Shown piece by piece: positions 44,350 to 60,651 of a stretch of 64,000 nucleotides of DNA. A model generated the notes under the pieces. It saw only the letters and a program-made list of their open reading frames with translations, made no database searches and was not told where the DNA came from. This DNA is from Actinomycetota bacterium (GTDB lineage: Bacteria > Actinomycetota > Thermoleophilia > Gaiellales > Gaiellaceae): positions 71,276-135,275 of the forward strand of contig PLBK01000015.1 of the NCBI GenBank assembly GCA_003134505.1, in the 5' to 3' direction. The first letter of the stretch is position 1. Every line of letters begins with the position of its first letter. The translations under genes and the position numbers were made by a program.

Positions 44350-45267
44350 GTGGCGGTGGGCGGAGCGAATGGGACTGCGCCGGTTGCGATCATCGGAGCG
44401 GCGCTCGATCTGGGCCAGGGGCGCCGCGGCGTCGACATGGGCCCGTCGGCGATCCGCTACGCGGGGCTGGACGCGCGCATCGTCGAGCTCGGGCGGGTCT
44501 GTCACGACTGGGGGAACGTCGTCACGCCGGTGGCCGAGTCGATCGCCTTCGGCGACGAGCACGCGCGCTTCCTCGACGAGATCAAGGCGACGTGCGAGCG
44601 CATCGCCGACCTAGTCGCCCGGGCGAAGGAGCGGGGCTACCTGCCACTCGTTCTCGGCGGCGACCATTCGGTGGCGCTCGGCACGCTGGGCGGGCTCGCG
44701 CGCTCGGCCGGCCCCGGGGGAGCGCTGTGGCTCGACGCGCACGGCGACCTGAACCGGCCGGAGACGAGCCCGACCGGCAACGTGCACGGCATGGTGCTGG
44801 CGGCGGCGCTCGGCCTCGCCGGCCCGCTGTTCGAGGGCGAGAAGTGGCCGATCCCCATGGTCGATCCGTCCCGGGTCGCGCTGGTCGGCGTCCGGGCGCT
44901 GGACGAGGGCGAGCGCAACCTGCTCCGCCAGCTCGGGGCGCTCGTCTACACGATGAGCGACGTCGACCGGATCGGCGTCGAGCGCGCGATCCGCGAGTCG
45001 CTCGAGCACATCGCCGGCTCCGGCTTCGTCCACGTCAGCCTCGACATGGACGTCGTCGATCCCGAGGTGGCGCCCGGCGTCGGCACGCCGGTCCGGGGCG
45101 GCTTCTCCTACCGGGAGGCGCACTTCGCACTCGAGCTGGTCGCCGAGTCCGGCCTCGCGGGATCGCTCGAGGTGGTCGAGGTCAACCCGATCCTCGACCG
45201 GGAGAACGCGACCGGCCGGCTCGCGGTGGAGCTGGTCGCGAGCGCGCTCGGCGCCCGGATTCTCTAG
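44350..45267 (+). CDS. Arginase/agmatinase family (arginase-like)
   Basis: GVDMGPSAIRYAGL; VLGGDHSVALGTLGG; WLDAHGDLN; SLDMDVVDPEVAPGVGTPVRGG. Confidence 0.92.
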   Translation: MAVGGANGTAPVAIIGAALDLGQGRRGVDMGPSAIRYAGLDARIVELGRVCHDWGNVVTPVAESIAFGDEHARFLDEIKATCERIADLVARAKERGYLPLVLGGDHSVALGTLGGLARSAGPGGALWLDAHGDLNRPETSPTGNVHGMVLAAALGLAGPLFEGEKWPIPMVDPSRVALVGVRALDEGERNLLRQLGALVYTMSDVDRIGVERAIRESLEHIAGSGFVHVSLDMDVVDPEVAPGVGTPVRGGFSYREAHFALELVAESGLAGSLEVVEVNPILDRENATGRLAVELVASALGARIL

Positions 45268-45710
45268 CCCGCGAGCGAGGCGTCGACGGTGATCTCGACG
45301 TTGCCCTCGAGCGCCTTCGAGACCGGGCAGTTGACCTTCGCACCGTCGGCTGCCTCCTTGAACGCCGCGGCGTCGACGCCCGGGACGTCGCCGCTCACGC
45401 GCAGCGCGATCTTGGTCAGGCGGAAGCCGGCGTCGGTCTTGTCGAACTCCGCGGTCGCGTGGGTCTCGAGGTGAGCCGCTGGGCTCCCGGCCTGCGCAAG
45501 CCCGTGTGAGAGCGCCATCGAGAAGCAGCCGGCGAGCGCGGCGGCGATCAGCTCCTCCGGGCTCGACCCGGCGGAGGCGTCCTCGGCGCGGGCACGCCAG
45601 CTCAGCGGGACCCCGCTGACGGCGCCGCTCCCGACCGAGACCGTTCCGGACCCGCTCATCAGGTCACCGTCCCACGTCGCCGATGCAGTGTGCTCAGCCG
45701 CCATGCTCAT
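45264..45710 (-). CDS. OsmC/Ohr-family protein
   Basis: MSMAAEHTASATWDGDLMSGSGTVSVGSG...SPEELIAAALAGCFSMALSHGL...NCPVSKALEGNVEITVDA. Confidence 0.92.
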   Translation of the reverse strand: MSMAAEHTASATWDGDLMSGSGTVSVGSGAVSGVPLSWRARAEDASAGSSPEELIAAALAGCFSMALSHGLAQAGSPAAHLETHATAEFDKTDAGFRLTKIALRVSGDVPGVDAAAFKEAADGAKVNCPVSKALEGNVEITVDASLAG

Positions 45711-45774
45711 CCTCCTTGTCGTTGCTCGCCTGCGGCCGATAGTACTTGCGGCCCTTGAGGTGGTAGGGCACTTC
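45694..45774 (-). pseudogene. Severed native 3' end of rarA/mgsA (27 codons including stop)
   Basis: Minus frame: E VPYHLKGRKYYRPQASNDKEDEHGG stop; continues in frame from rarA codon 407 (SGTE) at 59431-59433 when the element is removed; carries the conserved RarA-type GRxYYRP motif. Confidence 0.85.
45766..45774. other. attL crossover (GGGCACT-TC)
   Basis: Left half of reconstructed attB plus central TC dinucleotide. Confidence 0.8.
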
Positions 45775-45852
45775 GGTATTGACTTCCCGCGCCATCTACG
45801 CGTACATGAGGCGTAGGGCGGATGGGCCGCCCCACGCCGCAAGGGAGGATAG

Positions 45853-47376
45853 ATGGCCACGTTCGACATCTACGTCAGGATCTCGGCCGAGGGTGATCGC
45901 TCGCCCGCCGAGGTTGCGGAGCAGCTCGATCTCTACGAGGCGACGTGCCGCGAGTGGGCTGAGCGGAACGGAATCGAGGTCGGGGAGGTGGCGCGTGAAT
46001 CGAACGTCTCGGGCGCAGCCAAGATCGATGAGCGCGAACTGGGGCACCTGATCCGGCGCGTCGAGGCCGGTGAGTCGGCGGGCATCCTGACGCCGTATCT
46101 CGATCGCTTCGGCCGCGACACCGTCGAAGGGTGCTTGGCGTATCGCCGGATCAAGCAGGCGAGCGGTCGGCTCGTGTGCGTCTCGGACGGCATCGACTCT
46201 GACCGGCCCGGCGACGAGACGATCTTCCAGGTGCGGATGGTCTTCGCCGAGGACTACCTGCGCCGGGTGAACGCGAACTTCCAGGCGCGCATCGACCGGG
46301 CCGCAGCGGCGGGCGCGTACCTCGCCGGGTGGCCGCCTGTCGGCTACGACCGCGATGCCGAGGGTCGGATCACGCCGAACGCGAAGGCGAAGCCGCTCGT
46401 GCGCGAGGCGTTCCGGCGACGGGCGGAAGGCGTGACCGCCGAGGCGATCCGCGACTACCTGCGAGAGAAGGGCAACGGCATCGAGACCCGCGACGAGCGG
46501 AAGCCCGAGGGCAAGAAAGCGCTGCGCCCGTTCGACAACATCTCGAAGGGCGGCGTACGGCACATGCTCGCGAACCGCGCTTACCTCGGCGAGTCTCGCG
46601 TGCGGACGGAGCGGAAGGGCGAGCCGCGCACGATCCTGAACGCGCATCCGCCAATCGTGACCGAGGACGAGTGGGAGCGGGCGCGGGCGGCGGGCGGCCT
46701 GTATCACCCGCGCAACGGCCGATGGGCTTCGCGCTCTCGGCTGCGCGGACTCGTGCAGTGCCCGAACGGCCATCGGATGAAGGTCGGGGCCTCCGGTCGG
46801 CGTCCTGGCCCCGAGCCTGCGCGAGCCGCCTACATCTGCACGCATGAGACCTGCAACGCGCGGGCAGCGATTCTCGCCGAGCCACTGGACGAGTTCATCG
46901 CCGGGCTGCTGCAGATGGCCGTCGTCACCGACGTGCCCGAGGTGATCGCGGTGCTGGCGGGCGACGATCGCTACCAGCGCGCCCTGACCGCCGTCGAGGC
47001 TGCGAGAACGGAGCTGGACGCGTACATCGAGACGGTGAAGGTCTCCGACGTGGGCCGCGACAGCTGGATCCGAGGCAAGGAAGCCCGACAGGCCGCGCTC
47101 GACGCCGCTCGTGCTGAGCTACGAGCGACTCCAGCCCCGACGCCGTTCAGGAAGGCTGCTCGCGGTAGGGCGATGACGTTCGAGGAGGCGCTGCCGGGTC
47201 TGGAGCGAGACGAGTTCGCCCGGTTCGTGGATCGTGTGGTCGTGAGGCCGGTGGGCCGGGGCAAGCGGGTGCCCTTCTACGAGCGGCTGGAGGTGTACTG
47301 GGTCGGGGCCGAGGATCCAGCTGACCTGTCGCTGGCGATCCCGACCGAAGAAGTGCTCTACGAGGTGGCGGCATGA
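45853..47376 (+). CDS. Large serine recombinase (resolvase N-terminus, recombinase, zinc-ribbon domains)
   Basis: FDIYVRISAEGDRS...AGILTPYLDRFGRDT...AAAGAYLAGWPPVGYDRDAEGRITPN...GGVRHMLANRAYLGESRV...GLVQCPNGHRMKV..CTHETCNARA. Confidence 0.95.
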   Translation: MATFDIYVRISAEGDRSPAEVAEQLDLYEATCREWAERNGIEVGEVARESNVSGAAKIDERELGHLIRRVEAGESAGILTPYLDRFGRDTVEGCLAYRRIKQASGRLVCVSDGIDSDRPGDETIFQVRMVFAEDYLRRVNANFQARIDRAAAAGAYLAGWPPVGYDRDAEGRITPNAKAKPLVREAFRRRAEGVTAEAIRDYLREKGNGIETRDERKPEGKKALRPFDNISKGGVRHMLANRAYLGESRVRTERKGEPRTILNAHPPIVTEDEWERARAAGGLYHPRNGRWASRSRLRGLVQCPNGHRMKVGASGRRPGPEPARAAYICTHETCNARAAILAEPLDEFIAGLLQMAVVTDVPEVIAVLAGDDRYQRALTAVEAARTELDAYIETVKVSDVGRDSWIRGKEARQAALDAARAELRATPAPTPFRKAARGRAMTFEEALPGLERDEFARFVDRVVVRPVGRGKRVPFYERLEVYWVGAEDPADLSLAIPTEEVLYEVAA

Positions 47377-47582
47377 GCGACGGACACCTCAGCCCGCTCC
47401 AGCGATGCTGGGTGCTGCTGGACGACCTGGAGGATCGCGTGCGCCGTGAAGGGCTTCAGGTGACCGCCGATGACCTGGCCCTGGCGAAGCGGTTCCTGAT
47501 GGAGCACGACGAGGAAGCCGATGCTGGGCGCTTTCCAGGCGGTGCGATGGGTGCCTCCTGGGGCGAGGGCAGCGTAGAGTAA
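47373..47582 (+). CDS. Small hypothetical protein, translationally coupled to integrase
   Basis: ATGA overlap with recombinase stop; 69 aa. Confidence 0.6.
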   Translation: MSDGHLSPLQRCWVLLDDLEDRVRREGLQVTADDLALAKRFLMEHDEEADAGRFPGGAMGASWGEGSVE

Positions 47583-47610
47583 AAGCCAGCCTCACTCCTC
47601 CTACAGGCTC

Positions 47611-47634
47611 CGCAGCTCGCTTCGGCGAGCTGCG
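47611..47634 (+). terminator. Strong hairpin CGCAGCTCGC-TTCG-GCGAGCTGCG
   Basis: 10-bp perfect stem with UUCG tetraloop after the integrase operon. Confidence 0.75.
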
Positions 47635-47710
47635 TCGTGTTGACGGATAACCGGTCAACTCGTGCAGAGCGAATGAGGCGGATAACCGTCACGGCAGATA
47701 CCCTGCGGGG

Positions 47711-48337
47711 ATGGCCGAGGGGATGCCGGAGCCGAGGTTCTCGACTCCAGAGGAGATCAGGCAGCTCCGAGAGGGGCGACTCCGCCAACAGCAGGCGGCG
47801 CGCGACGAGCAATGGCAGACGAGCGGCTGGGGCGCGGTAGGTGTCCGGTGGTGCAGCCGCTGCACGGAGAGGTTCGACGGCGCGGCTTACATCTTCGATG
47901 ATCCTTTCGGGCGGAGCTACCTCTGCGCGAAGTGCTTCAGGAAGGAGTGCAAGCGGGTGGAGCGGTTGCTCGCGAAGGTAGGAGGAACCGATGACGAGCC
48001 TGATGTCAGGAGGCGGCTTCGGACGCTGCACGACGCGGTGCCGCAGCCGTGCGTCGTCTGCGGGCGGCCGTTCGCCTGGGTCGGCGGTACGGGGCCTCGC
48101 GTGAAGCGGGACGAGAGCGTCGATCCCTTCGCGCTCTACTCGCTACCGCGTCCTCGCATCCATCTCTGCTCCGATGTCTGCCGCCGCGAGTGGCGCAACC
48201 GTAGGAGGCGCGTCCAGCACGCGGGCGGAGTCTGCGAGTGTGGCTGCGGCGAGTCGCTGCGCGGGATGCGCCGAGGCGCGAAGTACTTCTCGGGCGCGTG
48301 CAGGATGCGCGCTCTGAGGGCGCGGCGGGCGGCCTAG
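47711..48337 (+). CDS. Cys-rich multi zinc-finger hypothetical protein
   Basis: CSRC...CAKC; CVVC...CSDVC; CECGCG...C. Confidence 0.7.
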   Translation: MAEGMPEPRFSTPEEIRQLREGRLRQQQAARDEQWQTSGWGAVGVRWCSRCTERFDGAAYIFDDPFGRSYLCAKCFRKECKRVERLLAKVGGTDDEPDVRRRLRTLHDAVPQPCVVCGRPFAWVGGTGPRVKRDESVDPFALYSLPRPRIHLCSDVCRREWRNRRRRVQHAGGVCECGCGESLRGMRRGAKYFSGACRMRALRARRAA

Positions 48338-48663
48338 ATGATCGGCTTGAAGATCGGGATCACGTAGACGACGTTCGAGCCGTCCTCCGCGGGCACCCGC
48401 ACGTCCGCGACGTGGCGGGAGGTCTCGGGTGGCGGTGGTGGGCGGCGCAAGCGCTCATGTCTGATGAGCACCGAGGCGCTTCTCCTACGGATGTCGGCGC
48501 GGGGATTCTGCAGCAGCTCGTGAAGGACTTCCACGGCGACCTCACCGCCATGCCGAGCGAGCGATTCCGCCGCGCGCAACCTCTCCATCGGCGACTTCGA
48601 CTGAAGTTGCAGGCGGAGGACGGCGAGGGCGGCCGACTCAGGGGCGGGCTGGCTCTCGCTCAC
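48334..48663 (-). CDS. Small helical protein, HEAT-repeat-like
   Basis: SPMERLRAAESLARHGGEVAVEVLHELLQNPRADIRRRSASVLIRH. Confidence 0.6.
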   Translation of the reverse strand: MSESQPAPESAALAVLRLQLQSKSPMERLRAAESLARHGGEVAVEVLHELLQNPRADIRRRSASVLIRHERLRRPPPPPETSRHVADVRVPAEDGSNVVYVIPIFKPII

Positions 48664-49208
48664 CAGAACTGCAACCTGCCGACCGTGGCCAGCTCCACCT
48701 GTGGCTCGGCGTCCGGCTCGCGGCGGCCGGACGGATCGTGCGGAACCGTGGAGCCAAGGCGCGTGCGCTCACGGCGGTGGCCGTTGAGGGCGCGGCGCTC
48801 ATACTCTTCGGGGCTGATCCGGCCAAGGTCACGGTCTCGCATGTTCAAGAACTGGATGAAGCCTCGGTCGCCTGAGAGCAGCTCCTCCGTGACGGGCGGC
48901 CGATGCGACTTCGGCAGCGGGCCGTGCGCGGGCTGGCCAGGCTCGCGGTAGTCGGGATCGCCGCGAGCGACCCTCCGATTTCGCTCGACGGCTCGCTGGG
49001 TACCTTCGGCCTGGGCAAGCCTCGCTGCGTCCTCGGCCTCGCGCGGCTCGACCACCTGCTCGCGGTAGCGCTTGATCTTCGCGGCGGTGACGGAGCGGCT
49101 CAGCCCGAGCTGCGCGCCAACGGCCCTCACCGACTTCAGCCTGAGCCAAAGCCGATAGGCGTCCTCGTCCTCGATGCCCTTCGGCGCGAATTGAGCCTCA
49201 CGATCCAT
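48660..49208 (-). CDS. HTH-containing phage-like protein, coupled to HEAT-like gene
   Basis: RLKSVRAVGAQLGLSRSVTAAKIKRYREQV (helix-turn-helix-like); ATGA overlap with 48663 start. Confidence 0.6.
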   Translation of the reverse strand: MDREAQFAPKGIEDEDAYRLWLRLKSVRAVGAQLGLSRSVTAAKIKRYREQVVEPREAEDAARLAQAEGTQRAVERNRRVARGDPDYREPGQPAHGPLPKSHRPPVTEELLSGDRGFIQFLNMRDRDLGRISPEEYERRALNGHRRERTRLGSTVPHDPSGRREPDAEPQVELATVGRLQFW

Positions 49209-49633
49209 GCCATGAACATAGCTCCATCGTCCGGCCCGTCCTGGGTCGCCGAGGCGGCCGAGGAGCCGGAGCGTCCCGCCCGCCCACGGCCTCCGTCCCG
49301 GCCCACGTCGGCCACGTAGCGATCGAGCGGCCCCACCGGCCCAGGAGGCGCTTTCCGACCACACGAGCCGCTACAGGGCCTCGGGCCTCAGGAGGCCGCG
49401 GAATCGGCCGCGAGAACTTCCTTTCCCCTGCACACGAGCTATTCCGGGTCGGACATAGCCAAGTAGGGCAGGTAGGGATGCCGATTCAGGCCGCCAACCG
49501 AGCCGATCGAGGCCAGCTGCCCGGCAGTGACGCAGGCGCATCGCGGAGGCGGTCGAGAGGGCGGCGGGCGGAATCCCCTCGCCGGACTAGCTCGCTGATC
49601 TGCCGATTTGCAGATCTTCCGGCTTGACCTTGT

Positions 49634-49760
49634 CGGCCCTCGTCGGCCCTCGCTTTTCGGCCCTTCCCGGCCCTTCGCGGCCCTTTCCCGACCCACTGTT
49701 CATGCGGTGTCGGCCCTTGTCGGCCCTGACCGGCCCTCTCCGGGGCACCTTGTCGGCCCT
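49634..49760. repeat. Direct-repeat (iteron-like) array, 9 x CGGCCCT
   Basis: Copies begin at 49634, 49644, 49658, 49668, 49678, 49711, 49721, 49731, 49754; dominant spacing 10 bp; intergenic between divergent genes. Confidence 0.8.
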
Positions 49761-49768
49761 TTCTCGTA

Positions 49769-49787
49769 GGGGCTACGTAGTAGCCCC
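49769..49787. repeat. Perfect inverted repeat GGGGCTAC-GTA-GTAGCCCC
   Basis: 8-bp arms, 3-nt spacer, 9 bp after the repeat array. Confidence 0.7.
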
Positions 49788-49861
49788 GAGGGCCGGGAAG
49801 CCGGGCCGGGGCCGTGGCCGTCCTGTCGGTGGAACGAGATAAGCAGCTAAACTGTATCTCG

Positions 49862-50158
49862 ATGCCGCCTCGCCCGACCACCGCTCCGACGTTCCCGCCC
49901 GAGCTTGGCCCGCTGCCTCCGCCTGGCCCGATCGACGGCCTGCCGCGCCCGGCGAGCTTTCGCGTCGGCTCCGCCTCCACCCACGGCATCGTCTCCACGT
50001 ACTCGCGCGGCTGCCGTTGTCCGCACTGCACCTTCGCATGGCGCGAGTACCGCCGACCGCGAGTTCGAGCTTGGTCGCAACGGAAGGCGGCGGAGCGCAA
50101 GCTGGCCGAGGCCCGCCGTCTCGTCGCCGAGGCTGACCGGCAGGAAAGCGGCCAGTGA
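49862..50158 (+). CDS. Small Cys-containing actinophage/plasmid-type protein
   Basis: HGIVSTYSRGCRCPHCTFAWREYRR (GCRC.xC-type motif). Confidence 0.65.
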   Translation: MPPRPTTAPTFPPELGPLPPPGPIDGLPRPASFRVGSASTHGIVSTYSRGCRCPHCTFAWREYRRPRVRAWSQRKAAERKLAEARRLVAEADRQESGQ

Positions 50159-51393
50159 CGTTCACGGCGGAGGAGGTCGAGCAGCAGCACGCGCTCGCGC
50201 ACCAGGCGCGGGCGGAGGCTCGTGCTGGGGCTGCGTTCGCGCAGGCTGCGGCCGAGGATCCGCTGCGGCTTCCCGACTTCTTCCCGCTGCTGCTCGCGGC
50301 CTACGACGATGAGCCGCTGACCGCCGAGGAGCAGGCGCAGCTTGCCGCCTACGAGAACGCGCTTGTCGAGGCAGAACGGCGGCGCGGCCTGCTCGGCCTG
50401 GTTGATCTCGCCGAGGTCATGCGCCACGGCTCGACCGAGCCGGAGATGCTCGTGCCCGACCTGCTCGTCCGGGGCCTGCACCACCTCATCTACGGCGCGA
50501 AGGAATCGGCGAAGACGTGGCTGCTGCTGTGGGCCGCCGCGCAGCTGCTCGTCCGAGGCGAGACCGTGCTGTGGGTGGACAAGGAGATGGGTCGAGGCTC
50601 GCTGGCAGACCGGCTGAAGACGCTCGCCGGGGCCGGGCGAGAGACGGCGATGGCGAACGTGGTCGAGGAGCACCTGGTCTACTGCGAGCACCCGACGATG
50701 GATCGGTCGGCCGAGTCGGTCGCGTTGTGGACGGCGCTGCTCCAGAACCGGCAGCCTGCCCTCGTCATCATCGATGCGCAGACTGAGGTGCTGGCCGACG
50801 CCGGGTTGAACGAGAACATCGGCACCGACGTGGAGCGATGGATGCAGTCGTACCTCACTCCTGCGCGACGGCTCGGCGTGACGACGGTCTTCCTCGATCA
50901 CACGCCGCTCGACTCGTCCGGTCGCGCCGTCTCGTCTCGTCAGAAGGGCGCGGCGGCAAAAGTCGAGCTTGAGGTCGTGAAGACGGCTCACTTCGACCGC
51001 GACACGGTCGGCCTCGTCACCGTCACGCGCAACAAGAACACGGTCTCCGCTCCGATCCCCGAGACGCAGGGCTTCCGCATCGGCGGCACTCCCTTCGTGC
51101 TGGAGCCGTCCGAGCTGCTGCTGCCGGGCGCAGCTGCGACGGCGGCCGGGGCCTACCTGCGAGTGCGGTCGGACATCCGGCTCCTGATCCAGCGCGCCGA
51201 GGAGCCACTCACGAAGTCGCAGATCACCGACTCGATCTCGGGCAAGGACTCGATCAAGCGCCGTGCGCTTGCCGACCTGGCGGGCGACCCGACCGAGCCG
51301 GTCGAGGCTCGTCCAGGCTCTCGCGTCGGATCGCTTCTTTACTCGTGGACGGGCGAGCCAGCGCCCGAGCCGCTGCCGGAGCCGGTCATCTGA
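50155..51393 (+). CDS. RepA/RecA-like AAA ATPase (replicative helicase-type)
   Basis: LIYGAKESAKTWLLLWAAAQLLVRGETVLWVDKEMGRGSLADRL (Walker A variant), ALVIIDAQ (Walker B), TTVFLDHTPLDSSGRA. Confidence 0.8.
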   Translation: MTFTAEEVEQQHALAHQARAEARAGAAFAQAAAEDPLRLPDFFPLLLAAYDDEPLTAEEQAQLAAYENALVEAERRRGLLGLVDLAEVMRHGSTEPEMLVPDLLVRGLHHLIYGAKESAKTWLLLWAAAQLLVRGETVLWVDKEMGRGSLADRLKTLAGAGRETAMANVVEEHLVYCEHPTMDRSAESVALWTALLQNRQPALVIIDAQTEVLADAGLNENIGTDVERWMQSYLTPARRLGVTTVFLDHTPLDSSGRAVSSRQKGAAAKVELEVVKTAHFDRDTVGLVTVTRNKNTVSAPIPETQGFRIGGTPFVLEPSELLLPGAAATAAGAYLRVRSDIRLLIQRAEEPLTKSQITDSISGKDSIKRRALADLAGDPTEPVEARPGSRVGSLLYSWTGEPAPEPLPEPVI

Positions 51394-51509
51394 TGCAACC
51401 CGTCATCACGCACGGCCTGGCGCTCCCGGCCTGACGTAGTTCCCGCAAAACGCGACAGACCGGGGACGACTGCCGACGATCACCGGCGTTTCTTATCCAG
51501 GGGTGAGAT

Positions 51510-52154
51510 TTACGCTGCCGGTGCGGGGCTGGGCGCGTCGGCTGCCCCGTTGCTGCGCCGGTAGATGAGGGCGCTCACGATCAGCGTCCAGACGGCGAGC
51601 GCGAAGAGCGTGAGCCAGCCGATCGGCGTGAGCGCCACGACTCCCAACACGATCGAGACCCAGCCAAGCCAGCGCGGCAACAGCCGGGAACGCTCGATCG
51701 CGAGACCGCTTGCCATGTACACCACGCCCAGTCCAGCGAGTAAAGCGCCCGTTGCCAGGTCGCTTTGGATCACGTTCAACGCCTGCGCTGCCCCCGATGT
51801 CAACTTCGCGGGAACGTCAGCAAGCGCGAACAAGCTCCCCGCAGCGAGTGCGCCAGCCGCGGCGAACAGCACGCCTCCGGCAAGGGCGACGGCCGCGAGT
51901 CGTTCGGCCACGGCTGACTGGCGCAGATAGCCGCGCAGCGAGCCGAAAAAGAACAGGCCGAAGAACAAGCTCAGCGTTATCAGGTAGGCCGCAGCAGTCA
52001 GTCTGCCGTTGTGCGAGTGGTAGTAGGAGATCACCTTCAGCCCGCTGGAATCGCTGTTGGGCGTGTTCCCCGACAACACGAAACCGACCGCCAACAACAC
52101 CACGAACAGAACGCCCGCCACCAACGACCCCAGACGACCCCACCGATCCAGCAC
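51510..52154 (-). CDS. DUF4386-like membrane protein
   Basis: 6-TM pattern; GLKVISYYHSHNGRLTAAAYLITLSLFFGLFFFGSLRGYLR. Confidence 0.6.
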   Translation of the reverse strand: MLDRWGRLGSLVAGVLFVVLLAVGFVLSGNTPNSDSSGLKVISYYHSHNGRLTAAAYLITLSLFFGLFFFGSLRGYLRQSAVAERLAAVALAGGVLFAAAGALAAGSLFALADVPAKLTSGAAQALNVIQSDLATGALLAGLGVVYMASGLAIERSRLLPRWLGWVSIVLGVVALTPIGWLTLFALAVWTLIVSALIYRRSNGAADAPSPAPAA

Positions 52155-52525
52155 GCGCCGACCCTAACACTCCGACTCGAAAGCAACAAGACCAAGCAGA
52201 GGAGTTGCGGAACCCGGTCGAAGGGCCGCCAACTCCACCGGTCTGACACGTCCGTGCAATTGGGGCGTCCGGTTTCGGTTGCCGGCCTTCCACCAGATCG
52301 CGTCATCCGGCCGCCGAAGCAGCAAAGGCCGGTGGCGGTCACCGGCCCTCGCGCGAACGACCGTCGACAGGATCGCCGAGCGCATCACCGTCCAGTGGCT
52401 GCTCGGCGCTGCGGAGGGAGGACTCAGGCGCGGGAACCGGCTGAAGCCACTCGTGACGGCCGTGTCATCTCGCGTTCCGGCTTTATGGCCCGCGCCCTAC
52501 AGCGACTCTACCGCGACGAGTCACT

Positions 52526-52547
52526 ACAAGTGACCTAGGTCACTTGT
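52526..52547. promoter_or_regulatory. 22-bp perfect palindrome ACAAGTGACCTAGGTCACTTGT
   Basis: Perfect dyad 30 bp upstream of the 52577 GTG start. Confidence 0.75.
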
Positions 52548-52576
52548 TCCGGGGCACGGCGGTACAGTCGTGTGAT

Positions 52577-52981
52577 GTGAACAGCTACGAGAAAAGGCTC
52601 TCCGAGATCGACGCCTTGGTCAAGGCCTTGCGCGGTCTCGGCCACACGGACGACGAGATCGTCGTTGAGCTGCGGAAGCATCTCCCCGGCCTCGCTGAGA
52701 AGCCGCCGCGCACCCTCGGCGAGCACATCCAGAAGTCGCTCATGAATCCCGGTACGCCGGTCATCTTCACGGACGGCCCTCGGGGAGACGGCGGCTCCGC
52801 CCACCATGAGATGACCGAGAAGACGCGCGGCGCACGCGCCAAGCGGGACGAGGACGATTCGGCTGAGGCGACGCGCAAGAGCGCACGCCGGGCAGAGGTC
52901 TCGGGCGCGCAGAGCATCATCGCGAAGGCGATCCGCGAGCCGGGCAAGGCGCACGTCCTCGGCGACGGGTACGCCTCATGA
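52577..52981 (+). CDS. Hypothetical protein
   Basis: VNSYEKRLSEIDALVKALRGLGHTDDEIVVELRKHLPG...; GTG start; first gene of a coupled array. Confidence 0.65.
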   Translation: MNSYEKRLSEIDALVKALRGLGHTDDEIVVELRKHLPGLAEKPPRTLGEHIQKSLMNPGTPVIFTDGPRGDGGSAHHEMTEKTRGARAKRDEDDSAEATRKSARRAEVSGAQSIIAKAIREPGKAHVLGDGYAS

Positions 52982-53100
52982 CCACGGCATCACGCGGTCT
53001 CGTCCGCCTGACCAAGTTCTGGAACGGCCAGCACCTGACCTGCTTCGTCCACGAGGCTGAGGTCGCCGAGCGTCTAGCTCGCGGCTGGAGGCGGGCATGA
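52978..53100 (+). CDS. Small hypothetical protein (40 aa)
   Basis: MTTASRGLVRLTKFWNGQHLTCFVHEAEVAERLARGWRRA; ATGA overlaps on both sides. Confidence 0.55.
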   Translation: MTTASRGLVRLTKFWNGQHLTCFVHEAEVAERLARGWRRA

Positions 53101-53702
53101 GCACGGCCCTGCGCGAGCGGGACGCTGTCGCGGTCGGATTTGACCACTCGAAGAACCTCTCGGAGGGCATGGAGTACGTCGAGGAGAACGGCATCACGAG
53201 CTGGCGCGAGATCGAAGGCTGGACTCCGCCCGAGCCGGAAGACGAGATCGAGCTGGACGTGATCCAGAACGACTGGCAGGAGCCGGGGCGGGACGAGCTG
53301 CTGGTCGCTGACCCGTACGCTGATCTTCCCGCCGAGAGCCGGCGACTTCATGAACGACAGCACGAGCTGACCACGCTCGCCGAGACCGTCTCCCTCTCGA
53401 AGCGGGCGCAGGCTGAGCTGGCCTCGATCCCCGTGAAGATCGCTGCGTTCCACAAGCAGGACGACGAGGCCCGCGCCGAGCGCGAGCGTCTGGGCGCCGA
53501 GCTGGGCGAGGCGCGCGAGCGGATCCTCACCGAGACATGGATTCCGGCTGCCGAACGATTCTGCGAGGCGAACGACCAACTGCGTGCGATCGACATCACG
53601 GCGCAGCGCCAGGGCGTCCGCCCGACTGGATCGGAGCGACCCGAGGTGCGCGCTCAGCACGATCACGATTTCCGTCTTCTACTGGCTCGACTCCGAGGCT
53701 GA
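53097..53702 (+). CDS. Coiled-coil hypothetical protein
   Basis: Glu/Arg-rich helical centre; coupled to upstream ORF. Confidence 0.6.
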   Translation: MSTALRERDAVAVGFDHSKNLSEGMEYVEENGITSWREIEGWTPPEPEDEIELDVIQNDWQEPGRDELLVADPYADLPAESRRLHERQHELTTLAETVSLSKRAQAELASIPVKIAAFHKQDDEARAERERLGAELGEARERILTETWIPAAERFCEANDQLRAIDITAQRQGVRPTGSERPEVRAQHDHDFRLLLARLRG

Positions 53703-53703
53703 C

Positions 53704-53940
53704 ATGGGTCGGCGAGGTTTCCAGATGGCTCCGCTGCACAAGGCGAGGCACTACCCTCGGGCGGTGGTTCGCGGGCGTCCCGCTTCGCCGTCGTTCGCCT
53801 CGGCTGAGCAGGGCATCGTGAAGGCTCGCGCCGAGCAGGGCGCGGACGGCATCCACCTCCACGTGACGGTCAAGCCCTCGCCAGTCAACGTCCACATCCA
53901 CGAGTACGACGGCACCGAGCAGGCGCTGGCTCATGCGTGA
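53704..53940 (+). CDS. Small hypothetical protein
   Basis: MGRRGFQMAPLHKARHYPRAVVRGRPASPSFASAEQGIVKARAEQGADGIHLHVTVKPSPVNVHIHEYDG. Confidence 0.55.
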   Translation: MGRRGFQMAPLHKARHYPRAVVRGRPASPSFASAEQGIVKARAEQGADGIHLHVTVKPSPVNVHIHEYDGTEQALAHA

Positions 53941-54202
53941 GCTGACCGACATCCAGAAGAGCGTCCTCGGCGAGCTGTTCAAGGCGACGGGAACCGTCCG
54001 CCTGGACACCTTGGAGATGGACGAGATCTCCGGCGTGGACGCCGGGGCCAACCTCATCGACGGATGGATGGTTCTCAAAGCGCGCCACGCCGAGACGGGC
54101 CGTTTCGTGCCCGAGGGCCATCCCCGCGTGAAGCCAGAGGCCGGGATCTTCCGCCGCGCCACACCGGCTCAGCGCCGGTTCGGCGGCCGGTTCTTCAGCT
54201 GA
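53933..54202 (+). CDS. Phage-like small protein with VDAGAN motif
   Basis: MDEISGVDAGANLIDGWMVLKARHAETGRFVPEGHPRV; resembles N-termini of XkdF/prohead-protease-type phage proteins. Confidence 0.5.
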   Translation: MRELTDIQKSVLGELFKATGTVRLDTLEMDEISGVDAGANLIDGWMVLKARHAETGRFVPEGHPRVKPEAGIFRRATPAQRRFGGRFFS

Positions 54203-54332
54203 CTTCCTTGCTTCCCGCGCCGGGCAGCCGTGCGAGCTCAGCATCGGCAGTTCCGGCAGAGCCTGTTCCGCTCGACGAACGCGCACGTCTTCTGCATCTG
54301 GTTAACCCTGGCGATAAGAGGTCGCTGACCAG

Positions 54333-55550
54333 CTACCTGACGGTCTCGCGATTCCCAGGGAGCACCGTCTTCTCAAAAGCGAGGGCGCGGTTGTACGTGT
54401 TTACACCTACTACCTTCCACTGCTCCTTGGTGGCGAGGTCCTTCCAGTCGCCGTCGTAGAGGATCTCGCGCATCCATAGACCGGCTCCCCGCAAGGGCAC
54501 CGGCACCAGTTTGAGACGGGAGAGATCGTAGTTGTTGTAGTACCACCCTCCGGCGTAGGGGAACAGATCGGCGAACAGATCCAAGGAACGTCGCGCCTGC
54601 TTCGAGGTGCAACATGCCTGCCGCCCGATCTTCTTGAACTCGCCGGCCTCGGCGTCGAGGCAAATCATCGCGCCGAAGCCCAGGAAGTACACCTGGAGGA
54701 CGGACGGCAGGTACCAGGCCTCGTCCTCCGCGATTGTCCGCACCATCTCGCGGAACGATGAGGGTGCCATCCGCGCCCACCGGCTCGACTCGTCCGCGAG
54801 TGCGGCACAGCGAGTCGCCGCGAAGGCGAGTTCGATCCGCTTCCGGTGCTCCAGATAGAAGCACGCCTGCATCTCGGCCGAGGTGCCGTCGAACATCGCT
54901 CGCCTGAACAGCTCACGTGCGCCGCCGCCGCCGCTGATCTCCGTCGCCATCGTCAACGAGATGTCTGGGGCCTCCTGGTAGAGCAGGTACAGGCGAACTG
55001 CCTGCCGCCACGGATCCGGCTCCAGCCAAACCCGCGAAAGGAGGTGCTGTAGCTGCTTCTTCACGAGACGGATGGTTTCGTACCGCTGCCACAGGTTCTT
55101 GTCGTTGATGACCTTGATGAAGGCGTCCTCGACGCGGTAGCAGCTCACCCACGCCTCCAGCACTTCATCTGGCGGCTCCAACTCGATCAACCCAGCCTCG
55201 GCGAAACTCCCCGCGATAGTCCTCGCATCCCGGTCAACGACCGCGATCTCGTGGCCGATCGCCAGCTGCACCTTCCGGGTGTGCAGCGGGTCGCTTGGAT
55301 CAGCGAGGAGCACTCCGCTGTCGATCCCGAGGTGGGTCTTGAGACCGAGCAACTTCCAGAGATCGCTGAAGCCACTCCGCCCGACCTTCGACTCGACGAG
55401 GACTGACTCCTCCTCACCACCGGGGAAGCGGTAGCCCAGAACGTCCAGCTCGAACGCCTGGAAGCTCTCGTCCAGCACGCGCCGGCGGACGTACCAGCCC
55501 GCTGCTTGCAGAGCAGCGGCAACGCTGCGCTCAAGATCTGCCCCGGTCAC
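54333..55550 (-). CDS. PD-(D/E)XK nuclease-like protein (putative restriction/defence)
   Basis: AFELDVLGYRFPGGEEESVLVESKVGRSGFSDLWKLLGLKTHLGI: ELD ... ESK nuclease signature; long helical C-terminal region. Confidence 0.65.
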   Translation of the reverse strand: MTGADLERSVAAALQAAGWYVRRRVLDESFQAFELDVLGYRFPGGEEESVLVESKVGRSGFSDLWKLLGLKTHLGIDSGVLLADPSDPLHTRKVQLAIGHEIAVVDRDARTIAGSFAEAGLIELEPPDEVLEAWVSCYRVEDAFIKVINDKNLWQRYETIRLVKKQLQHLLSRVWLEPDPWRQAVRLYLLYQEAPDISLTMATEISGGGGARELFRRAMFDGTSAEMQACFYLEHRKRIELAFAATRCAALADESSRWARMAPSSFREMVRTIAEDEAWYLPSVLQVYFLGFGAMICLDAEAGEFKKIGRQACCTSKQARRSLDLFADLFPYAGGWYYNNYDLSRLKLVPVPLRGAGLWMREILYDGDWKDLATKEQWKVVGVNTYNRALAFEKTVLPGNRETVR

Positions 55551-55673
55551 GGATCAGGTGTAGCAGAGGGTTGGCTCGGGATCCCTCTTCTGGACACTTG
55601 ATGCGTGGGCGCTGGTTCCCGTAGTACGTGCGTGACCGGCCGCGCGAGGCGGCCCGCACTAGGAGGATCGAGA

Positions 55674-55933
55674 TGGCCACCAAGATCAGGATCACCGGCA
55701 AGCTGGCAGTCGCTCAGGTGCTCGCGGACGGCAAGCCGAAGAAGTCGAAGGTCATCTGCGCCGAGGCGGCAGCCATCGCCACCGAGCTGAAGGGCCGCAC
55801 TCCCGAGGCCACCCTGAGCGCCCTGCTCGCGACCGAGGCGAAGAAGGCGGACGGCCTCGTCGTCCGCACGAAGCCGGGCGAGTTCAAGCTCCGGCCGAAG
55901 CGGAAGGCCCGCGTAAAGGCCGTCGCTCCGTGA
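55674..55933 (+). CDS. HARE-HTH-like domain protein
   Basis: AVAQVLADGKPKKSKVICAEAAAIATELKGRTPEATLSALLATEAKKADGLVVRTKPGEFKL fits the HARE-HTH pattern (gkP...TPeatlsa.L...v.pG.F.L). Confidence 0.6.
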
Positions 55934-56037
55934 CGCGCTGCTGAGTCCGCCACGTCGAGGGCCGCCGATGAGGCGGCCTTCTCGTTGGCCGAGGCTCGGC
56001 CCAGGTGCCCCTCCGGCGCGACTCCTAGACTGGGCCG

Positions 56038-57663
56038 GTGGAGCCGAACCAGCTGTTCTACGGCGACAACCTCGATGTGCTCCAGCGACACGTGAAGGAC
56101 GAGTCCATCGATCTCGTCTACCTCGATCCACCCTTCAAGTCGAACCAGGACTACAACGTGCTGTTCGCCGAGCACGGCACCCGTTCAACCGCGCAGATCA
56201 AGGCTTTCGAGGACACCTGGCGCTGGGACGAGGTGGCGGCGGCGGCCTACGAGGAGACCGTCGAGTCGGGCGGCGAGGTGGCGCAGGCGATGCGCGCCTT
56301 CCGCACGTTGATCGGCACGAGCGACATGCTCGCCTACCTCTCGATGATGGCCCCGCGTCTGGTCGAACTGCGCCGCGTGCTGAAGCCGACAGGATCGCTC
56401 TACCTCCACTGCGATCCGGCAGCGAGCCACTACCTGAAGCTCCTCCTCGACGCGATCTTCGGCCCGACGCGCTTCCGGAACGAGATCATCTGGAAGCGAA
56501 CCTCGTCCCACAGCAGCTCGAAGAAGTACGCCCCGATCCACGACACGATCCTCTACTACGGCAAGAGCGAGTCGGCGTCGTGGAACAGCCCTCGCGTGGA
56601 CTACGAGGAGGAGTATCTCGACCGCTACTACAAGTACGACGACGGAGACGGCCGCCTCCACTGGCGCGCCGACTTGTGCGCCGCTGGCACTCGGAAAGGG
56701 AGCAGTGGCCAGCCCTGGCGTGGCTTCGATCCGGCGGTCAAGGGGATGCACTGGAAGTTCAAGGTGGAGCGCCTTGATGAGCTTGATGCCGAGGGCCGGA
56801 TCTACTGGCCACCAGGAGGGACGGGCTGGCCGCAGTACAAGCGCTACCGCGAGGAGCTGAAGGGCAAGGTCATCCCGGACATCTGGGACGACATCAACCG
56901 GATCAACCCGGTGGGAGGCGAGCGGCTTGGCTACCCGACCCAGAAGCCACAGGCGCTACTGGAGAGGATCATCCAGGCGAGCACGCACGAGGGCGACACC
57001 GTGCTCGATCCCTTCTGCGGCTGTGGCACGACGATTGCCGCCGCGCAGCGCCTCCGACGCCGCTGGATCGGCATCGACATCACTCACCTGGCGATCAACC
57101 TCATCCGGCACCGCCTGCGGGACGCCTACGGGAACGACATCACGAAGGACTACCGCGTAATCGGTGAGCCAGTGACCGCAGACGAAGCGGGTGAGCTGGC
57201 GAAGGAGGATCCGTACCAGTTCCAGTGGTGGGCGCTCGGACTCGTTGGCGCGCGGCCCACGGAGCAGAAGAAGGGAGCGGACAAGGGCATCGACGGGCGC
57301 ATCTACTTCCACGACGAGGGGCCGGGAGGGAAGACGAAGCAGATCATCCTTTCGGTGAAAGCGGGCAGCACAAGCGTCCCTCACCTACGCGACCTTCGAG
57401 GCGTGATGGAGCGCGAGAACGCCGAGATCGGCGTGCTGATCACGATGAAGGGGCCAACGCAGCCGATGCGAACCGAGGCGGCGAGCGCGGGCTACTTCAC
57501 GTCACCCGGCTGGCAGACGAAGCACCCGCGCCTTCAGATCCTCACCGTCGAGGAGCTGCTCGATGGGAAGCAGATCGATTACCCGCACGTCACCGGCGTC
57601 ACCTTCAAGAAGGCCCCGAAGGCGAAGCCGAACGAGTTGGAACCTGAGCCGCTGTTCGAGTAG
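56038..57663 (+). CDS. Site-specific DNA methyltransferase (beta-class, DPPF) with C-terminal Mrr-like nuclease-fold domain
   Basis: LVYLDPPFKSNQDYNVLF (motif IV), VLDPFCGCGTTIAAAQRLRRRWIGIDIT (motif I), C-terminal GADKGIDGRIYF...IILSVKAG. Confidence 0.88.
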   Translation: MEPNQLFYGDNLDVLQRHVKDESIDLVYLDPPFKSNQDYNVLFAEHGTRSTAQIKAFEDTWRWDEVAAAAYEETVESGGEVAQAMRAFRTLIGTSDMLAYLSMMAPRLVELRRVLKPTGSLYLHCDPAASHYLKLLLDAIFGPTRFRNEIIWKRTSSHSSSKKYAPIHDTILYYGKSESASWNSPRVDYEEEYLDRYYKYDDGDGRLHWRADLCAAGTRKGSSGQPWRGFDPAVKGMHWKFKVERLDELDAEGRIYWPPGGTGWPQYKRYREELKGKVIPDIWDDINRINPVGGERLGYPTQKPQALLERIIQASTHEGDTVLDPFCGCGTTIAAAQRLRRRWIGIDITHLAINLIRHRLRDAYGNDITKDYRVIGEPVTADEAGELAKEDPYQFQWWALGLVGARPTEQKKGADKGIDGRIYFHDEGPGGKTKQIILSVKAGSTSVPHLRDLRGVMERENAEIGVLITMKGPTQPMRTEAASAGYFTSPGWQTKHPRLQILTVEELLDGKQIDYPHVTGVTFKKAPKAKPNELEPEPLFE

Positions 57664-57709
57664 TGCATGGCTGCCATCCGGCCCGCCCAGTACGCTGAAG
57701 GCTCTACCC

Positions 57710-57886
57710 ATGAGGGAGAAGTTCGTGACCGATAAGAAGATCGAGAAAATCGCGATGCCCGGCGAGACTTATGGCATCGGCGCTGACATCGTGAACAACG
57801 TCGTGAGCGGTGCCGTAGGTGGTGTCGCAGGCGCGGTCGCCAGTCAGGCGATGGGCAAGATCAAGTCCGGCAAGAAGGAGAAGTAG
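57710..57886 (+). CDS. Small glycine-zipper-like protein
   Basis: IGADIVNNVVSGAVGGVAGAVASQAMGKIKSGKKEK. Confidence 0.5.
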   Translation: MREKFVTDKKIEKIAMPGETYGIGADIVNNVVSGAVGGVAGAVASQAMGKIKSGKKEK

Positions 57887-57896
57887 GGCCGCGAGG

Positions 57897-58274
57897 ATGT
57901 ACCGGATCGACTGGAACCTCTGGGCGAAGCTCGTGATCGGCTGCGAGGCGCTCCGGTCGATGATTTGGGCGCTCCAGAACGCGCATCGGGCCGACTTGTG
58001 GCTCGACCAGCACGTCTTCCAGCCCCTTTTGCAGCGCTTCTTTGGCCCAAAGGTCGTGGCCGACTCCGGCGTCAACGTTTTGACTATCACGCAGGGCGAT
58101 GAAGAGCTGCCCGTCATCGGGGACATGCCGTCCCCAGGCCGCTCGCCTTTCCAGCGCCGGACATACGGCTCCTTGATGCCGCCTCGACGGCCGGGCTTGA
58201 GGCTCGGCGGCTCGGCCACGTCCTCAGTCGTGGTGCATAGCCCGGTCGTCGGAGGGATCGTGCTCGGCAGCTGA
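57897..58274 (+). CDS. Hypothetical protein
   Basis: MYRIDWNLWAKLVIGCEALRSMIWALQNAHRADLWLDQHVFQPLLQRFFGPK. Confidence 0.5.
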   Translation: MYRIDWNLWAKLVIGCEALRSMIWALQNAHRADLWLDQHVFQPLLQRFFGPKVVADSGVNVLTITQGDEELPVIGDMPSPGRSPFQRRTYGSLMPPRRPGLRLGGSATSSVVVHSPVVGGIVLGS

Positions 58275-58314
58275 TCGCCTTCAGGTGACCGTCCGCCGCA
58301 TCTAGACTGGCCGC

Positions 58315-58524
58315 ATGACCGATACTGCACCTCCGCCTCCTCCGGCTCCCCGCACGAAGATCCAAGCCGCCCGTCACTCGATCTCGAACGACTACTTCGA
58401 GCCTGCGACGGTGACGGGAACCTCGACTCACCTGGAGCAGCTCTACGTCGAGTTCACGTACGACGGCGACGGCGAGCCAGGGAAGCATCCTTGGCCGTCT
58501 GATGCGATCCGCGTCGAGGAGTAG
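58315..58524 (+). CDS. Small hypothetical protein
   Basis: MTDTAPPPPPAPRTKIQAARHSISNDYFEPATVTGTSTHLEQLYVEFTYDGDGEPGKHPW. Confidence 0.45.
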   Translation: MTDTAPPPPPAPRTKIQAARHSISNDYFEPATVTGTSTHLEQLYVEFTYDGDGEPGKHPWPSDAIRVEE

Positions 58525-58534
58525 CGACCGCCTC

Positions 58535-58774
58535 ATGCTTCCGCCGCTCGATCTGAGTGTCCTCGACAGGATCGTGAAGCTCGCGGAGCGCATCCTGCAC
58601 GACGCCTACGAGATCGCCCTCGTCTCCATGGCGATCGACCGCTACCGCAACAGGGCACGGATCCCGGCTCCGGCCGATCAGCGCTCCGTGACCATCCAGG
58701 TACCAGCCGCACGCGCGGCCGCCGTTATGGGGAAGGCGACCGTGACCTGCGAGCTGACGCTCGTCGGTCGGTAG
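58535..58774 (+). CDS. Small hypothetical protein
   Basis: MLPPLDLSVLDRIVKLAERILHDAYEIALVSMAIDRYRNRARI. Confidence 0.45.
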   Translation: MLPPLDLSVLDRIVKLAERILHDAYEIALVSMAIDRYRNRARIPAPADQRSVTIQVPAARAAAVMGKATVTCELTLVGR

Positions 58775-58851
58775 CGCGTAGCTCGTCCTTTCGCTCTTAC
58801 GAGCACTCCGAGTTGTAAGCCCAGGGCCTCCGCCGTAGTACGCTCCGGCAC

Positions 58852-59295
58852 GTGTCTCGGCGCACGAAGATCATCATCGGCGTGGTCGGGGCTGTCGTGT
58901 TCATCGTCATCCTCGCGGCCGTTGCGAGTAGCAAGACGAAGACCGTGACCAAGACGAAGACCGTGACCAAGACGCGGATCGTCTACAGGACGAAGACCAG
59001 GATCGTCTACAGGACGAAGTCTGCCGTGACCTACCGCGTCCCAGGCGGCTGCACCTCGGCGATCCGCGATGCCAGGAACGCCTTCCTCATCATCCACGAT
59101 GCGTTCAAGGCAGTGCAGCCTTTCCCGACCTACGTTTACCAGGCGGCGCAGGCGGGTGCCGCGCAGGACTCGGCGAAGATCACGAGCATCGCGAACGAGA
59201 TGAACGCGGCGAACAAGAAGGTGGAATCGGACGCATCAGCGCTCGGTACGGCCGGTCTGCTCTTCAACGGCGATGCCTCGATCTGCAAGAAGTAG
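58852..59295 (+). CDS. Membrane-anchored protein with Thr/Lys tandem repeats
   Basis: N-terminal TM then TKTVTKTKTVTKTRIVYRTKTRIVYRTK; DNA tandem repeats 58933-59020. Confidence 0.65.
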   Translation: MSRRTKIIIGVVGAVVFIVILAAVASSKTKTVTKTKTVTKTRIVYRTKTRIVYRTKSAVTYRVPGGCTSAIRDARNAFLIIHDAFKAVQPFPTYVYQAAQAGAAQDSAKITSIANEMNAANKKVESDASALGTAGLLFNGDASICKK

Positions 59296-60651
59296 CTACT
59301 CCGGCCTGAGTCCATCGATCTTCTCGGCCGCGCTCGTCTCGCCCGCGTCTCGCAGGAAGTCGGCGACGGCCTTCAGGTTGATCCCCTGCAGGACGTTCGC
59401 GGGCTTGTAGTAGCGACCGCGTGAACTTCCTTCAGTGCCCGACTTCAGCTCGTCGGGGAGGTAGTCCACGTCGAAGCCGGCGGGATCCGAATGCGGGTAG
59501 ACGTACCCCTCGCCATGGCCGAGCTTCCTCGCTCCCGGGTAGTGGGCGTCGCGGAGCGACTTCGGCGGGCGCAGGTTGCCTCGCTCGCGCACGTCGCGCG
59601 TCGCGTCGGAGAGCGCACGCGTGACCGCATTCGACTTGGGCGCGCAGGCGAGGTAGATGGCCGCCTGCGCCAGGTTGAGCTTCGCCTCGGGCAGGCCGAC
59701 GTGCTCCAGCGCCTGGGCCGCCGCGACCGCGACGACCAGCGCCTGCGGGTCGACGTCGCCCACGTCCTCGGAGGCGAGGATGACCATGCGCCGCGCGACG
59801 AACCTCGGGTCCTCGCCGGCCTCCAGCATCGCCGCGAGGTAGTAGACGGCCGCGTCCGGATCGGAGCCGCGCATCGACTTGATGAACGCGGACGTGAAGT
59901 CGTAGTGCATGTCACCGGAGCGGTCATAGACGAGCGGCCGCTTGCGCGCCGCGTCCTCGACGTGCTCCGCGGCCATCGCCGTGCCCTCCGCCTCCGCGGT
60001 CTGGGCCGCGAGCTCGAGGATGTTCAGCGCCGAGCGCCCGTCGCCTCCGGCCCGCCGGGCGATCAACGCGGCGAGCCCGTCCGGAACGGCCACGTCCAGC
60101 ATCGCCGCCCCTCGCCGCACGACGAGCGCCGCCTCCTCGTCGGACAAGGGTTCCAGCTCGTACAGCTGCATTCGTGACATCAGCGCCGAGTTGACCTCGA
60201 AGTACGGGTTCTCGGTGGTCGCGCCGATCAGCGTCACCAGCCCCTCTTCGACCGCGGGCAGCAGCGCGTCCTGCTGGGCTTTGTTGAAGCGGTGGATCTC
60301 GTCGAGGAACAGGATCGTGCGCTGTCCCTGGGCGCCGAGCCGCTCCCGTGCCCGGGCGAGCACGGCCCGTACCTCGGCAACGGTGGCCGACACCGCCGAG
60401 AGCTCCTCGAACGCGGCGCCGGTCTGGGCCGCGACGATCCTCGCGAGCGTCGTCTTGCCGCTCCCTGGCGGGCCGTAGAACACGGACGAGACGACCCGGT
60501 CGCCTTCGATCGCGAGCCTCAGGGCCGAGCGCTCGCCGAGCACGTGCCGCTGGCCGACGAAGTCCTCGAGCGTCGCCGGGCGCGCACGCTGGGCCAGCGG
60601 CGCCGAATCGGGCATCCGCTCGCGCGCCGCGTCGGCGAAGAGGTCGCCCAT
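59296..60651 (-). CDS. rarA: Replication-associated recombination protein RarA/MgsA, chimeric: codons 1-407 chromosomal, last 44 aa from the element
   Basis: PLAQRARPATLEDFVGQRHVLG, FYGPPGSGKTTLARIVA, FLDEIHRFNKAQQDALLPAVE; C-terminus crosses the attR junction at 59431-59433. Confidence 0.93.
   Translation of the reverse strand: MGDLFADAARERMPDSAPLAQRARPATLEDFVGQRHVLGERSALRLAIEGDRVVSSVFYGPPGSGKTTLARIVAAQTGAAFEELSAVSATVAEVRAVLARARERLGAQGQRTILFLDEIHRFNKAQQDALLPAVEEGLVTLIGATTENPYFEVNSALMSRMQLYELEPLSDEEAALVVRRGAAMLDVAVPDGLAALIARRAGGDGRSALNILELAAQTAEAEGTAMAAEHVEDAARKRPLVYDRSGDMHYDFTSAFIKSMRGSDPDAAVYYLAAMLEAGEDPRFVARRMVILASEDVGDVDPQALVVAVAAAQALEHVGLPEAKLNLAQAAIYLACAPKSNAVTRALSDATRDVRERGNLRPPKSLRDAHYPGARKLGHGEGYVYPHSDPAGFDVDYLPDELKSGTEGSSRGRYYKPANVLQGINLKAVADFLRDAGETSAAEKIDGLRPE
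59432..59440. other. attR crossover (TC-AGTGCCC)
   Basis: Central TC plus right half of reconstructed attB. Confidence 0.8.

Follow-up and report, generated by a model that had tools for sequence, protein, structure and literature searches.

The window, by which we mean the whole stretch of 64,000 nucleotides that was analysed, carries a host rarA gene with an integrated element in its 3' end (Table 1). The rarA frame on the minus strand (59296-60651) is open over 451 aa, enters element DNA and stops at 59296-59298, directly against the convergent gene 58852-59295 with zero gap between the two stops, as the first-pass annotation had noted. Its product is a RarA/MgsA AAA+ ATPase with both an AAA+ core and an MgsA_C domain (profile matches: MgsA_C, 5.3e-58; AAA_assoc_2, 5.1e-22; AAA, 1.1e-18), and it matches the E. 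coli RarA structure 3PVS with 330 bits (2.5e-97). It is the only rarA found in the source assembly, a single genome of 56 contigs with 82% completeness.

Table 1. Features of the rarA locus and of the element inserted in it (positions in the window).
Feature	Position	Strand	Basis or remark
osmC-like host gene, downstream of rarA before insertion	45264..45704	-	Pfam OsmC 1.9e-19; synteny in relatives
Displaced native rarA 3' end (GRKYYRPQASNDKEDEHGG and stop)	45694..45753	-	tail pattern of relatives; 11-bp overlap with osmC start
Reciprocal hybrid ORF, 33 aa	45694..45795	-	element start MAREVNTEVPYHLK joined in frame to native RarA tail GRKYYRPQASNDKEDEHGG
Probable crossover dinucleotide CT at attL	45758..45759	-	
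Left attP arm GTGCCC	45766..45771	-	sequence; reconstructed attP
Whole integrated element, ~13.7 kb	45759..59447		att core to att core; in 3' end of rarA
Large serine recombinase (integrase), 507 aa	45853..47376	+	Pfam Resolvase 1.8e-17, Recombinase 1.9e-13; phrog_95 integrase 2.9e-59
Weak HNH match	47711-48337		element gene
RecA-like/AAA_25 ATPase	50155-51393		element gene
DNA methyltransferase with Mrr-like end	56038-57663	+	element gene
Last element gene	58852..59295	+	runs towards the rarA tail; the two stops abut
Element-derived tail of chimeric RarA, 48 codons and stop (SGTEGSSRGRYYKPANVLQGINLKAVADFLRDAGETSAAEKIDGLRPE)	59296..59442	-	no internal start codon; codon score
Right attP arm GGGCAC	59435..59440	-	sequence; reconstructed attP
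Probable crossover dinucleotide CT at attR	59447..59448	-	within shared string CT[G/C]AAG, 59443-59448
Host-derived part of rarA, codons 1-403, ending DYLPDELK	59443..60651	-	alignment to 29 family relatives; native homology stops at LPDELK

The large serine recombinase has intact resolvase and recombinase domains and adjoins one att site, its start lying 94 bp from the left core (attL). The element is otherwise small and rich in orphans: nearly all ORFs in 47373-58774 are on the plus strand, most of those searched have no Pfam or PHROG match, and no capsid or conjugation gene was recognised among the element ORFs searched. The single 541-aa product of the methyltransferase gene joins an N4/N6 DNA methyltransferase (residues 24-354) to an Mrr/NA-iREase1-like domain (residues 403-509). 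For the last gene, Pfam and PHROG searches gave no convincing family; its product has a membrane-like stretch at the N terminus and, after it, a repetitive KTKTVTKTKT / RTKTRIVYRTK segment, and shows a weak match to the superinfection-exclusion family phrog_4980 (E 6e-4). No terminator shared by this gene and rarA was recognised at the convergent stops, where the predicted fold was no more stable than that of shuffled sequences.

The empty site, of which the genomes compared gave no example from the same species, was fixed by the native ends of 45 relatives and by the junction of rarA with the next gene. The RarA proteins of 29 members of the same family end in LPDELKGRxYYRPSGSGEEKEDxxGG, and in 16 others, most of them more distantly related, [YF]YxP immediately follows the LP segment, giving the native pattern LPDELKGRxYYxP across all 45; diverse RarAs of the phylum were also compared for their native ends. 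The displaced native tail, with its GRKYYRP, is sited at the other end of the element. When the flanks are re-joined, rarA encodes 422 aa ending in DYLPDELKGRKYYRPQASNDKEDEHGG, and its stop overlaps the osmC ATG (45704) by 11 bp, an overlap that is identical in seven relatives. The native tail had earlier been read as VPYHLKGRKYYRPQ, including VPYH. This reading was not borne out: the string is a hybrid, the relatives continue from LPDELK straight into GRxYYRP, and VPYH belongs to the left att arm of the element.

The insertion separates the overlapping rarA-osmC pair. The osmC-like gene retains AAGGAGG within the displaced rarA end and now sits behind the 33-aa hybrid ORF that begins in the element. 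Because the last rarA codons of E. coli hold a regulatory sequence of serS (PMC9012371), insertions in the rarA 3' end may matter through the downstream gene.

The two ends of the element have only CT[G/C]AAG in common, and a search for exact words yielded no convincing long att repeat, consistent with a serine recombinase that has a very small core. The CT of the reconstructed attP is flanked, at a distance of 6 bp on each side, by the inverted arms GTGCCC and GGGCAC; 13 of 25 arm positions are symmetric, which is a modest value. A short common core within an attP of inverted arms is the layout of a large-serine-recombinase element. Since the arms are symmetric about the CT, we infer that this is the likely dinucleotide of exchange; the mismatched third base of the core leaves the crossover point ambiguous by a few bases, with neither protein altered.

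The insertion and the chimeric protein are firm. In rarA, the last 19 native residues have been lost and 48 element residues, beginning SGTEGSSRGRYYKP, have been gained, with the first codon after LPDELK at 59442. The first-pass annotation had the in-frame entry into element DNA right and the length wrong, giving 44 aa from 59433 where there are 48 aa (59299-59442, starting SGTE). In the reconstructed circle, a 62-codon ORF (MAREVNTEVPYHLK-SGTEGSSRGRYYKPANVLQGINLKAVADFLRDAGETSAAEKIDGLRPE) spans attP in the same frame that rarA has across attB, and integration therefore swaps the 3' ends of the two frames. An attP inside an element ORF is also found in systems of integration-dependent immunity; here the coding signal is on the right side of attP, and the left side is neutral.

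The tail is coding sequence read across the att core, a conclusion that is well supported by codon usage. Scored with element usage, the 41 codons that run from RGRYY to the stop reach +32.3 bits, and with host usage +30.2 bits; the other frames of this stretch give values between -3 and -49, and not one open wrong-frame stretch out of 624 scored as high. The GC content at codon positions 1, 2 and 3 is 0.68, 0.44 and 0.90. Codons of the att arms are unbiased (SGTEGSS, -9.3; MAREVNTEVPYHL, +2.4), as expected if integrase binding shapes them. Length is no argument for coding, because 48 open codons follow from about 47% of the positions in the DNA of the window. The tail contains no ATG, GTG or TTG, and its translation must therefore enter across the att core. 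What the codon bias attests is selection for coding in the past; it does not speak for a current role as a RarA tail. The bias is also the evidence for the 62-aa ORF as a putative gene, and a recently captured fragment of another gene would look alike. A crude scan found no promoter-like site for this ORF, and at the sensitivity used it had no credible homologue in family, class and phylum genomes, phage records or IMG/VR, no Pfam match, and in PHROG only phrog_11367 (E 0.2).

We propose an in-frame reciprocal exchange of tails that is probably tolerated; as a reading of sequence data we give it a probability of about 0.62. A single crossover at a site centred on CT, within the final 20 rarA codons, integrated an element that encodes a large serine recombinase; the attP of this element lies close to the 5' end of a small ORF of its own (62 aa in the circle), which is in frame with rarA. 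On integration, rarA lost GRKYYRPQASNDKEDEHGG and gained the 48-aa body of the predicted element protein, and the element start codon gained the native RarA tail, resulting in a 33-aa ORF that ends over the osmC start. The 62-aa ORF would be a genuine element gene expressed in the circle. As the junction comes after the conserved AAA+ and helical domains, the chimeric RarA presumably keeps its core activity, so that the insertion would be tolerated; even a tail-less RarA matches positions 1-142 of the MgsA_C profile.

Could the new tail stand in for the lost one? The YYxP motif is nearly universal in RarA ends and their most constant feature (RYYFP in E. coli 3PVS). Both tails had been said to carry GR(x)YY(R/K)P, and YY[RK]P with a nearby GR is indeed present in each; the full likeness fails, as the motif of the chimera lies 7 residues further from LP. 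The LP-to-YY spacing is 14 in the chimera versus 7 in 51 of the 52 natural RarAs measured, and the chimera thus departs from a conserved family trait, which is not a definition of the family. When the tail was shuffled 2000 times, YYxP appeared twice, and no instance of it occurs among 8642 overlapping 48-aa windows taken from other long ORFs. The YYKP of the tail, a post hoc observation, is suggestive at best.

Profile comparisons point the same way. The Pfam MgsA_C scores are 209.4 bits for the native protein, 194.9 for the truncated one and 198.2 for the chimera, so the tail regains 3.3 of the 14.5 bits that truncation costs. The 3-bit gain of the chimera against profiles of 29 family and 25 diverse RarAs was equalled by 13-20% of shuffled tails and by 7-13% of real segments. 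With YYKP held fixed, 26% of the shuffles match canonical RarA tails equally well, and the likeness after YYKP is therefore no better than chance. The tail lacks both the canonical G-x-E helix that follows YYxP and the acidic end seen in this family. In the structure predictions, for which the two alignments held only three sequences each, the C-terminal pLDDT was mostly below 50. The shuffle tests, together with the tails of the f3 genomes whose alignment ran further in, also led us to reject an origin of the tail from the RarA of another lineage. The earlier proposal that the element substitutes a functional-looking C-terminus thus survives as a new, in-frame, coding C-terminus; as a functional copy it is not supported by bits, shuffles or spacing. 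The analogy with the restoration of tRNA 3' ends does not carry over, serine integrases having only a tiny common core and the tail being non-homologous. Any restoration or change of RarA function is hypothetical.

Searches of 103 family, 399 class and 297 phylum genomes, of IMG/VR and of phage records turned up no sibling tail. Two candidates were rejected, one (E 0.008) that sits in an unrelated ORF and one that has only a short SRGRYY segment in common with the tail. The nearest relative of the integrase is 48% identical, and no relative was found beside a RarA tail motif. The nearest integrases, at 48% and 41-42% identity, adjoin other protein-coding genes, and the genes upstream of them we take, by eye, to be an acyl-CoA-dehydrogenase-like gene, an ornithine-cyclodeaminase-like fragment and a D-aminopeptidase-like fragment. 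Because its members adjoin such gene fragments, the integrase clade seems to target coding genes. Four relatives (37-48% identical) adjoin, by eye, apparent fragments of other metabolic genes, and two of these four appear to have one target in common.

The exchange may instead be incidental: the integrase would happen to target rarA, the tail would be whatever lies to the right of attP, and RarA would be partly or fully impaired. We consider this doubtful, if deserving of serious weight. It would agree with the commonness of open runs of this length, with a tail that resembles RarA ends in nothing beyond YYKP and sets the motif at 14 instead of 7 residues from LP, and with integrase relatives that lie beside other genes; the inactivation of GroEL1 by Bxb1 integration (PMC9262239) is a precedent. 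On the other hand, a strong coding signature in the exact rarA frame is unexpected for arbitrary downstream DNA, and both hybrids remain in frame.

A selected functional replacement, in which the tail would restore a YYxP-bearing C-terminus and RarA would work in carriers, appears unlikely. The near-universal motif with a GR before it, its rarity in shuffles and real windows, and the gain over truncation in MgsA_C would be accounted for, but the motif is displaced by 7 residues, comparable profile gains come from shuffled tails and real segments, and the canonical helix and acidic end are missing.

We regard as improbable a state switch in which a 62-aa protein is made in the circle and integration delivers its body as a RarA fusion, tying it to forks or removing the free form; in this reading, osmC would be entered from the other hybrid ORF. 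That the tail alters RarA at replication forks in favour of the element, as the first-pass annotation had offered as its alternative, or that the exchange is an integration-state switch for the small element protein, we judge very improbable. The integration-dependent immunity of phage BPs (PMC4557955) is built on an attP within an element ORF, two studies describe RarA acting at stalled forks and post-replication gaps (PMC8735627, PMC6374455), and the tail is real coding sequence; however, Pfam and PHROG searches found no annotation, homologue or repressor-like feature in it. A mis-joining of contigs at the rarA-tail junction can practically be dismissed in spite of the fragmented and incomplete assembly, as both junctions agree with one crossover at the common core, with the integrase beside attL and symmetric attP arms, and re-joining restores the exact rarA-osmC overlap typical of the family.

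Elements that supply a tail, serine integrases whose insertion abolishes the function of a coding gene, and attP within an element ORF are already known. Within the limited open literature searched, nothing was reported on rarA as an integration site, nor did any paper describe a serine integrase that exchanges unrelated host and element tails reciprocally and in frame. The e14 prophage in icd of E. coli K-12 likewise lies inside a conserved coding gene and supplies a replacement C-terminus in frame, but its tail repeats the 54 displaced residues almost exactly, with two conservative changes (PMC11148124), whereas the rarA tail is non-homologous, with only YY[RK]P in common with the displaced end, and was brought by a serine recombinase whose core is tiny. 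Mycobacteriophage Bxb1, which integrates in groEL1, is similar in its large serine integrase, actinobacterial host and protein-coding target; it inactivates GroEL1, while the rarA element attaches a long tail with a coding signature. In phage BPs, attP also lies within an element ORF and integration changes the C-terminus of the element protein. BPs differs in its tyrosine integrase, its tRNA attB and its repressor, which loses a degradation tag on integration; the ORF body of the rarA element is fused to a host protein and, by the Pfam and PHROG results above, has no repressor match. The dusA-specific element IMEVchUSA3 restores the reading frame of its target with an altered end too, in that case the N-terminus and promoter, with 61% identity over 35 residues (PMC8409611), in contrast to the non-homologous C-terminus here. 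Should the arrangement recur in sibling elements, mobile elements would have in their integrases a means of creating and fixing fusions of host and element proteins in a single step. Target-repairing elements usually carry a copy of the end that is lost; the rarA element attaches an unrelated and clearly coding tail to a conserved DNA-repair ATPase.
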